Source of the DNA: Luscinia megarhynchos
Lineage: Eukaryota; Chordata; Aves; Passeriformes; Turdidae
Reading direction: 5' to 3'
Assembly (NCBI GenBank): GCA_034336665.1
Contig: CM067576.1
Coordinates: 14,933,385 to 14,997,384, forward strand
Length of the DNA stretch: 64,000 bases
Below the pieces are notes generated by a model, which did no database searches, was not told the origin of the DNA, and saw only the letters and a list, made by a program, of their open reading frames with translations. Of the stretch, positions 28,901-31,900 are shown one piece after another (the stretch's first letter is position 1; the number at the start of each line of letters is the position of its first letter). The translations under genes and the position numbers were made by a program.

Positions 28901-31900
28901 CAAGTCTAGCTAACCAAACATTCTGAGTCAAGAATTTTGATCCTCATAGGCAAATCTACTATCATTTGGTTTCACTTTAGTATTATCTTTTGCTGACTGA
29001 AACCTCCTAGCTGTCTTTCCTAACCCCTCTAGATGACAGTATCTATAGATACAATTAATTCAATACAGAGAATGAAATGAATGACAAAAGGAAAAACACA
29101 AATACCAGCCACGGTTCTTGCTGGAACAGATTCTTTGTTGATCCAAAACACAACTTGAGACAAGACTACAGTCATGATGCATGGAATGTATGTCTGAATG
29201 AGATAGTAGCCTATTTTCCTTTGCAGATGGAAATAGAGCAGCTGGAGTGAATATTCGCCTAAAACAAACAATTAATGAAAGGAATGAATGAATGAATGAA
29301 TAAATGAATGAATTAATTCAATGAATGGTAGATGTGATGCAGAGCTGTTCAAAGACCTTAATACAGCATACCAAAAACTGTCCTGGCTGGAACAGACTCC
29401 TTGTTAATCCAGAAAGACACCTGAGAAAGAATGACTGTCATAATGCAAGGAGTGTATATCTGTATCATGAAGTAGCCCATCTTCCTTTGCAAGTGGAAAT
29501 AAACTGTCATGATTACATATTCACCTGGTAAGAGACAAGTATGTCAGCATTATTTTGGCAACATGTCAGTGAACATTATTGGCTTAAACCCAACATAATA
29601 TGCTCTGATGAAATCACAGACCTCCTGGTGCATAATAAAAATAAGCTGCTTAAAAAAAGGTAAAGTGACCTTATGGAAATAGAGCAGAATAATATTCATT
29701 TTATATATTGTTTTTACTGGGGTGGAGATGCAGTGCAAATTCTTATGAATCTCATGAAAAATTCTGTATTTGATATATTATAATTTTGTATTTTTATTGA
29801 AAAACTGTCTTTTAAGAGACAATGGTTAGAGTCTGTTCAAGTTGTACATTCTAAAATGGCAAAAGATAATTAATTTCATTCTATACGAAAAAATCCCCCT
29901 GTAATATATTATTAAGATGTTTCATAACAGCAGTACTTTCCACACAGCTCCATCTTACCTGTGTTAGATTTAATTGTTTCACTAGATACAGTTTGTCCTA
30001 TGAGGTCATATTGGAGAAGACTGGAAGACTCCTGTGGTACTTCTACTGAATGCAATGGTCCTTTTTTCCAAGTATAAATTATTTCACTTTTTGGATAAGC
30101 ATCTGAGTAACAAAGAAGAAAATTACCATTACTAATTACGTATTTAATAAGCAATTGAAAAAGTAAGTAGAATAATCCCTTTTGTAGCTAAAATACACAC
30201 AGAAACATGCATCCTACTCCAGTACGTTCCTAATCTCATTAATGACAAAATGAAAAAAAAAGGCAACAATAAGAGAATGGCTGAGGTGGGACCTGAGAGG
30301 AATTAGCTTTTGCATCTTAATTTGCTATAAAGCATACACATTTACTACCACAGCTCAACTAAATATTTTCAAAATTCATTACCACAGACTACCTATTTTC
30401 AACATTATAAGTAATACAGTAAATGTAGCAGAGGTTTTGAGATTTGTTGAAGGACCAACTTTGTTTACTGGAACTGTAAGAATAATAAACAATAAAACAT
30501 GATTCAACAGTCACCCTTCAGTGAATAAATCCATGTCCATATGAATGGTCTGAGTCTCAGAGAAACAAGTAAAATTCTAGTCTAAAAATGTAACTTAAAA
30601 TTTCAGCTATGACACTAAGTAATATCTTAGGATCTTCTGACCTTCTAAACAAATGTGTTACTTTAACAAACTGAAAGAAACAGAAAAACTTACAGCTTCC
30701 AAATTTCAGTGGACAAGCATGTCCATCCATTGGGAAGTTCACCAGTCGCATAGGACAATCAGCATTAATGGTTAGTCTAGAATGCACAGTTGTAGACAAT
30801 GAAAAATTATGGTATGTAGGAAAATGCTGACAGAATCAAAAATACAGGTCAACCAAAAGCAAAAGAACAAGTTCTCACCTCATTGTGTAAAGAATAGTTC
30901 CATTCTGCATAATTCTGAAAAGTTTGTTAGGAGTTGTCATATTGTGAGCAATTGATTTTTTTCCATTTCTAAAAAATGTGTCTGGTGTCCAAATTTTACT
31001 GACCATTAAATTGTTCAGTCTCAAAATTTCAGTTGGTCCACTAAACTTCAACCTCTCATCAGTCCACGTCTGACGAAAGAAGACATCCATTGTGTATTCC
31101 TATGGAAAATAAACAGGAGTTGACTTCTGTGTAGGGGTCAGCAGTCCCAAGTGGTTGTGGGGACAGTAACTCCATAAGACAACCTAACACACATGCCAAT
31201 GGCATTTCATTTACTGCTTACACACTTGATCCTATTAAGTAGTTACTAAAATTAGTAACTTAGATTAAGTAGTTACTAAGAAAAGTCATCCATGAAAACA
31301 TATCCTATTTTCTAATTATTTGAAGAATAATGAATCAGCGAACAGATAATTTGACATGAGTGGGAAAAAAACCCAACCTTCATTGTACTCTCATAGATAG
31401 TAATTTAATTCAAAGTGACAGAGTTCTAAGAAAATACAAATGTCTAACTTTCAAAGTCCAAGACTAAACTACCAATGTTTAATTGACTGAAACAAAAAAA
31501 TAAGATCAGTGACTCTTCCACAGCTTCCTTTGGATAGTCACAAAGTAAGGACTGATCTGAGTCACATCACAGGATTATGGTGTCAAGTTAATATTAATTG
31601 ATGGGACACTTTTTCAAGAATTCTTAGTAATATTTTCACAAGTCCTCAGAAAAGAGCTCTCTACAAAAGTTGTTTAGGAAACAGAGCTAAATCTGGCCAG
31701 GGGCAAATTTTGTAAGAACGCAAAGTTATGGCTTCTCTTAGACTGACTGATGAAGAGCATTGGAAAAACTTTGGTAGCCTTGGAGCCCACAGTTCCCAGC
31801 CTGCAAACCGGACTGCAGGTTCAGGTGAGCTATTGTTAGAGTAGTGCCCAAGGGCAAAAATAGCAGCCCAAGTCAATCTCTGGAAAGAGAACAGCAATGG

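Follow-up and report, generated by a model that had tools for sequence, protein, structure and literature searches.

The stretch of the Luscinia megarhynchos genome analyzed here (64,000 nucleotides, referred to as the window) holds the complete coding part of one gene on its minus strand, in 10 coding exons running from position 33258 to 11769 (Table 1). Sequence comparison supports its assignment as GABRA6, the gene of the GABA-A receptor alpha-6 subunit. The exons give a 465-residue frame with 7a or with 7b alike, and the version with 7b is identical at 463/465 residues to a Ficedula albicollis protein (P0069), the closest among the proteins compared; judged from such nearest proteins, the gene is that of a passerine. 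P0069 matches the Pfam families PF02931 and PF02932 (ligand-binding and membrane domains).

Table 1. Positions of the GABRA6 coding exons and of the intron features between exons 7a and 7b (window coordinates)
Feature	Positions	Strand	Remarks
Coding exon 1	33221..33258	-	
Exon 2	32649..32767	-	
Exon 3	32335..32402	-	
Exon 4	30879..31099	-	
Exon 5	30694..30776	-	
Exon 6	29959..30102	-	Upstream partner of 7a and 7b
Exon 7a	29372..29524	-	Canonical; end of beta10, pre-M1, M1, M1-M2 loop, M2 start; last residue Phe
Intron between 7a and 7b	29259..29371	-	113 nt, UCAU-rich
YCAY cluster	29275..29337	-	10 tetramers (TTCA repeat); candidate Nova-type switch
Exon 7b	29106..29258	-	Alternative copy of the 7a segment; last residue Ala, not Phe
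Exon 8	25892..26151	-	Downstream partner of 7a and 7b; rest of M2, M3
Exon 9	16717..16977	-	M3-M4 loop and M4
Exon 10	11769..11819	-	Last 16 residues and stop

Comparison of exons 7a and 7b

The original prediction had placed two 153-nt exons of the same strand and phase side by side here, with exon 6 (ending at 29959) and exon 8 (starting at 26151) as their common partners, and all of these positions proved right. Both exons are in phase 1 at either end, have AG/GT splice sites, and contain no stops; being homologous neighbors that agree in length and phase and whose splice sites are intact, they form a tandem duplicated exon pair. A third exon-7 copy was sought within the window and was not found. 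The 37 identical residues counted earlier over 50 whole codons correspond to 38/51 when the split first codon is included, and the codon tally of 18 identical, 20 synonymous, and 13 amino-acid-changing pairs was reproduced. At the nucleotide level the exons agree at 108/153 positions, the 45 differences being distributed over the three codon positions as 11, 8, and 26.

The dN was 0.19 to 0.22; three methods gave a dS of 1.3 to 1.7, while NG86 gave no dS value owing to saturation. When 45 random substitutions were put on 7a, on average 23.2/51 residues were kept (maximum, 34), and 38 or more were kept in 0/20,000 draws. The claim of purifying selection is borne out by this combination of a dN of about 0.2 with a dS above 1 and by an identity of 38/51 that neutral draws never reach.

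All 51 residues of exon 7a agree with the corresponding part of bovine alpha6 (P0226). The 13 residues that differ in the window comprise a block at positions 4 to 8 just before M1, seven within positions 16 to 37, and the last residue, Phe in 7a and Ala in 7b, which presumably is M2 position 3'. Matches in the PDB (148 sequences, of which the best 60 were listed) included two alignments, both to alpha4, with canonical residues at the sites where 7a and 7b differ. Residues 17 to 22 of 7b read GYYLIQ, in M1, where GABA-A alpha exons have GYF; the same motif occurs at loci L014 to L017 of this genome, which we take to be glycine-receptor-like exons, and the likeness is probably convergent.

The 7b peptide matched at least 24 exon-7-like places in the genome from which the window comes (1.09 Gb). 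The earlier statement that this exon is single in other alpha genes holds there: five others, which from their peptides and neighbors we take to be alpha1 to alpha5, have one exon-7 match each. No second exon-7 copy was found within 3 kb at any of 19 further loci (L005 to L023), nor in the 9.9 kb that surround exon 7 of GABRA1. Of the six alpha genes of this genome, only alpha6 has the exon pair.

Distribution and age of the exon pair

A protein search, for which the 51-residue 7b segment was placed in the complete subunit, passed 834 sequences, of which the best 120 were listed and compared with reference peptides. A 7b-type segment was carried by 116 of these 120: 93 had 7b only, 22 had 7a followed by 7b, and one (P0012) had 7b followed by a 7a-type segment, a fusion with another alpha segment. 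In P0022 and P0024 there were two segments nearer to 7a, the second one in P0024 being a gamma segment; P0093 and P0097 had neither type whole, 7b being cut short. Models of the 7b isoform are present in public databases, where many isoform entries are labelled as predicted.

Species named among the matches listed with 7b include birds (galliforms, passerines, ostrich, and owls), turtles, lizards, frogs, a salamander, and lungfish and, among other fish, two sharks as well as bichir, sturgeon, bowfin, and teleosts. No mammal was named among the best 120 of 834 matches, in which clusters can hide members, and the sampling of 7b holders took in no lamprey, hagfish, crocodile, snake, or gecko. The bird rows, which are not independent species, were identical to the window across all 51 residues of 7b in 51 of 57 cases; the six others were five owl rows (two of Tyto, two of Strix, and one of Otus) and P0083, which has one change. 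A turtle row in the same comparison (P0042) was left out of this count.

The owl substitutions lie in P0011, P0089, P0078, P0079, and P0080, with four in Tyto, including Tyr19Cys; the Tyto model P0011, which holds both exons, has the four changes in 7b and an unchanged 7a. Two Athene owl rows and that of the nocturnal kakapo (P0030) have an unchanged 7b, and for this reason we regard the drift in owls as a lead only. A ragged alpha6-like model of Xenopus laevis (P0026, 300 amino acids) contains broken pieces of both exon-7 types and is perhaps a decaying extra gene copy.

In a maximum-likelihood tree of exon-7 peptides (46 peptides, 42 of them different, over 51 columns, with many forks unresolved), all 22 of the 22 7b peptides fell into one clade with support of 100/100; the pair shows a single origin and conservation across species. 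Over the 21 models with both exons as neighbors, the mean identity per 51 residues was 46.6 among 7a segments, 43.2 among 7b segments, and 37.0 between 7a and 7b of one protein. The residues that mostly tell 7b from 7a are Ser 4, Gln 6, Leu or Ile 16, Tyr 19, Val 32, and Ala 51. The simplest reading of these comparisons would be one duplication before the split of cartilaginous and bony vertebrates, with separate constraint afterwards. With a dS above 1 and 7b-type segments out to sharks, the duplication, originally called old, is far older than could be known from the window.

Division of the exons between teleost gabra6a and gabra6b

A search with a cichlid gabra6a protein listed 120 rows, 104 of them new, and 102 of the new rows were 7b-type only (truncated in P0194 and P0212). 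The query protein is a 7b form too, but the list reaches far below the scores expected of its 7a form. The other two new rows were a sturgeon model fused to an alpha1-type segment and one without the segment. The region of hake gabra6b gave 120 listed rows, 95 of them new, with 7a only in 80, 7b only in 9, two segments nearer to 7a in 4, 7b plus a 7a-type segment in 1, and none in 1. Five of the nine 7b-only rows are beta2-type fusions (P0229, P0230, P0232, P0234, and P0280), and the other four were placed by the gene tree as gabra6b of Gymnothorax, Aldrovandia, Conger, and Anguilla.

The gene tree was built from 60 chosen rows from which the exon-7 residues had been removed, by a quick method with SH-aLRT support only; eight rows were flagged as long. 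All 14 rows of the gabra6a clade of teleosts (support, 93) had 7b, and all 16 of the clupeocephalan gabra6b clade (support, 98) had 7a. Outside these clades, gabra6b has 7a in tarpon and bonefish and 7b in eels and Aldrovandia, and one mormyrid has both a 7a model and a 7a-plus-7b model in gabra6b; the elopomorph gabra6b rows with 7b depart from a plain one-exon-per-copy rule for teleosts. The Arapaima row, with 7b, was not placed; gar had 7a and bowfin 7b only, in one row each. With three exon labels, the tree required 10 changes (minimum, 2), and shuffled labels required a mean of 26.6, with as few as 10 in 0/200 shuffles.

Because the exon labels follow a gene tree built without exon 7, each copy appears mostly to have kept one exon after the teleost genome duplication, basal lineages standing partly in between. 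This division is read from database proteins rather than from the genomic loci of the partner exon, and the 7b content of zebrafish gabra6a, which was absent from the rows, is deduced from its clade, the nearest row being Chanos. Reciprocal loss in gabra6a and gabra6b suggests that each exon alone is enough for a retained subunit, and the teleost division is the strongest sign that each exon by itself can build a useful one.

The gabra6b 7b segments of the mormyrid P0023 and of the elopomorphs P0311, P0313, P0317, and P0319 look altered, as if loss were under way in mormyrid and eels, and the branches of P0023 (0.13) and P0319 (0.23) in the peptide tree are longer than most. Besides the five fusions listed above, an alpha6 with 7b is joined to a beta2- or beta3-named subunit in the teleost models P0025, P0027, P0093, P0097, and P0194. 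In P0093, P0097, and P0194 the join lies inside exon 7b directly after ...VVVLSQ, where the codons could hide a donor; such models may reflect read-through or annotation error.

Two probable alpha6 subunits from one gene

We read the locus as a tandem pair of alternative GABRA6 exons that arose by one duplication before sharks and bony vertebrates parted, was partitioned in teleosts, and gives two alpha6 subunits, and we put the probability of this reading at about 0.86. Splicing would link exon 6 with one of the two copies, 7a or 7b, and that copy with exon 8, and the resulting subunits would have a common GABA-binding domain, M3, and M4 and would differ in gating and membrane-site residues. 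The pair, of single origin, would be shared by birds with those lizards, frogs, lungfish, bichir, sturgeon, and sharks for which models with both exons exist; in most of the post-duplication teleosts seen, gabra6a would have kept 7b and gabra6b 7a. The earlier claim of two isoforms gains support from the 465-residue frame that is open with either exon and from the presence of 7b in the proteins of many species. What has been observed is the exon structure, its conservation and constraint, the reciprocal distribution among database proteins, and a single transcript-like contig; the use of one exon at a time, altered channel properties, and the tissue choice (7a in cerebellum, 7b in retina) are inferred parts of the scheme.

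Unlikely, although the best placed of the alternatives, is that 7b is a cassette added to 7a, producing a longer alpha6 that is either functional or a non-productive form lowering the amount of receptor. Its appeal comes from the 22 models among the best 120 that hold both exons in order, with sharks, lizards, frogs, and birds among them; in 21 the segments abut exactly, and in P0026 they are ragged. It comes too from the length of 153 nt, which is divisible by 3, so that the frame survives the inclusion of both exons or of neither and exclusion is not enforced by a frameshift. A frameshift is not used by all strict pairs: of human mutually exclusive exon clusters, 60% are reported to have lengths not divisible by three (PMC5740500).

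The 7b-only models nevertheless outnumber the joint ones by 93 to 22 among the best 120, although the 93 include teleost gabra6a rows, in which no 7a was seen. Teleost gabra6a retains 7b alone. P0083, the sole transcript-like bird row, likewise has 7b without 7a; its contig, 3,038 bases long, codes for all 465 residues of the isoform. As the coding exons are spread over about 21.5 kb of the window, this contig is very probably a spliced transcript. Five teleost rows of the gabra6a search, from the same source as P0083, lie on contigs of 1,891 to 2,411 bases, and all have 7b. We infer that the joint models are prediction errors or dead ends, because a second M1 would add a membrane span and turn M2 to M4 the wrong way in the membrane. 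Predicted structures of the 7b isoform and of the joint protein had mean pLDDT values of 43 and 33, too poor to use. The alternative pair of the original prediction stands, and its mutual exclusivity is graded as no more than probable, since some models hold both exons and joint inclusion keeps the frame; strict exclusivity of 7a and 7b we consider likely.

That 7b is a decaying relic, annotated because it is still open, seems very improbable. The somewhat faster evolution of 7b than of 7a (43.2 versus 46.6 of 51 in the 21 models), its drift in some owls and in the mormyrid model P0023, and the lack of named mammals among the best 120 of 834 would fit such a relic. A relic would hardly be identical in 51/57 bird rows, be conserved in lineages as far apart as sharks and birds together with residues diagnostic of it, be the sole form seen in teleost gabra6a, or retain an identity to 7a that 0/20,000 neutral draws matched. 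An assembly or annotation artefact or a recent gene conversion, to which we give practically no weight, would have to account for 45 differing sites of 153, a dS above 1, and the recurrence of the pair in the records of many species. Artefact, recent conversion, and pseudo-exon were rejected on divergence, recurrence, identity among birds, and constraint.

The intron between 7a and 7b

The donors of 7a and 7b are GTATGC and GTATTT, respectively, and these, like the donors of exons 2 and 8, presumably depart from the usual consensus. The intron that separates them contains 10 YCAY tetramers, where 113-nt segments of the gene have 1.8 on average, and is the only place between 33258 and 16700 to reach 10. 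YCAY clusters are a Nova-type motif, and in Nova-rich neurons sites that follow 7a and precede 7b would favor 7a and restrain 7b. As a hypothesis, the cluster, a simple repeat in one species, could be a putative Nova splicing switch. A TTCA/AATG tetranucleotide repeat occupies 29270 to 29327 of this intron, just upstream of the 7b acceptor.

The acceptor AG is preceded by 84 nt free of AG, more than in any other of the nine introns checked. This stretch was rejected as evidence for a distant branch point, since it was reached in 2,132 of 20,000 base-composition shuffles and is within chance. Exclusion could also work through a branch point less than 50 nt from the donor; candidate branch adenines (yUnAy) are present at intron positions 50 to 100. 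The arrangement resembles exons 4a and 4b of OGDH, mutually exclusive exons with a size-restricted intron and distant branch points (PMC7969005), the GABRA6 counterparts being 113 nt and 84 AG-free nt; it differs in that the AG-free stretch of GABRA6 is within chance and its branch points are candidates by motif. The 113-nt intron, searched for a special RNA fold, was ordinary (z, 0.08), and no Rfam family was found at 28500 to 30200.

Relation to known tandem exons

The alternative exons of GLRA2 (glycine receptor alpha-2) are named 3A and 3B and code for the extracellular domain, whereas the GABRA6 pair swaps pre-M1, M1, and the M2 start. Like GABRA6, GLRA2 encodes a subunit of a vertebrate pentameric receptor that conducts chloride, and its alternative exons are homologous and in tandem. 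GLRA2 is mentioned in a paper about tandem-exon events in humans (PMC9741552). The insect nicotinic receptor alpha6, also a pentameric subunit, has mutually exclusive versions of exons 3 and 8 (PMC6393475), but it forms a cation channel and is of independent origin, its gene being unrelated despite the name. A parallel to gabra6a and gabra6b is that of CACNA1F and CACNA1S, duplicates that each kept a different exon of an ancestral pair (PMC9741552); these are calcium channels, whereas the GABRA6 split lies within teleosts and both exons occur in tetrapod, shark, bichir, and sturgeon models. We rate GABRA6 as an addition to the tandem alternative exons of pentameric receptors, unusual in position and history.

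By title and abstract, no description of exon 7b was found among the open-licence PMC papers listed by the searches. Chicken and goldfish alpha6 are reportedly the subject of old cloning papers. Two surveys of tandem exons in humans contained, in their main texts, no words beginning with GABR (PMC9741552, PMC5740500).

Possible tissue role and significance

The original prediction looked to the cerebellum, and the fish evidence for 7b points to the retina. In a zebrafish study gabra6a was located in photoreceptors, one splice form being kept per gene, in passages that do not describe the exon. Restricted low-level patterns in brain and eye have been reported for alpha genes other than alpha1, the exon again not being described in the passages concerned (PMC7973766), and chick studies of retina, RPE, and choroid have GABRA6 among their core genes (PMC6026464, PMC7935918). 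The zebrafish photoreceptor site and the chick retina listings together suggest that 7b is a retinal isoform. Several points count against this: Gabra6 is said, in a title cited in PMC7735995, to be expressed in the mouse outer retina, while no mammal with 7b is among the matches listed; 7b is unchanged in the nocturnal kakapo; and zebrafish gabra6a is itself absent from the rows.

A wider scheme, which we offer as tentative and think rather more likely wrong than right, would make 7b the photoreceptor alpha6 from early jawed vertebrates on and 7a that of cerebellar granule cells, with two genes for these roles in teleosts, a relaxed 7b in dim-light lineages such as owls, and loss in mammals. 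If the photoreceptor reading is true, GABA signaling at cones would rely on a GABA-A receptor distinct in gating and in its sensitivity to anaesthetics or steroids.

The swapped segment is, we assume, a site where anaesthetics, neurosteroids, and channel blockers act, and from the residues changed we expect that 7b may alter gating and drug response at the beta-alpha membrane interface. Counts of GABA-A receptor diversity usually give the 19 genes of mammals. Mammalian work would miss another form of alpha6 that differs in M1 and in the beginning of M2, that apparently dates back to the common ancestor of sharks and bony vertebrates, and that became a gene of its own in teleosts. Non-mammals probably make this second, seemingly unstudied kind of alpha6 receptor, and, given the swapped drug-site segment, fish and bird pharmacology may differ from that of mammals. 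The teleost split is a natural experiment in this respect, and gabra6a should reveal how 7b behaves alone.

Other features of the window

Exon 10 codes for a C terminus beyond M4, ending ...DTME-FFEPSAMHFRNDPQSN. In the 11 rows compared, an ending of this type was present in 4 birds, 2 lizards, and 1 of 2 turtles and absent from frog, shark, and cod. A GC-rich tandem repeat with 11-, 21-, and 32-base periods (32873 to 33214) fills most of the intron after GABRA6 coding exon 1, and a GC-rich minisatellite at 59153 to 60136, with 23 copies of a unit of about 42 bases, underlies long overlapping open reading frames on both strands.
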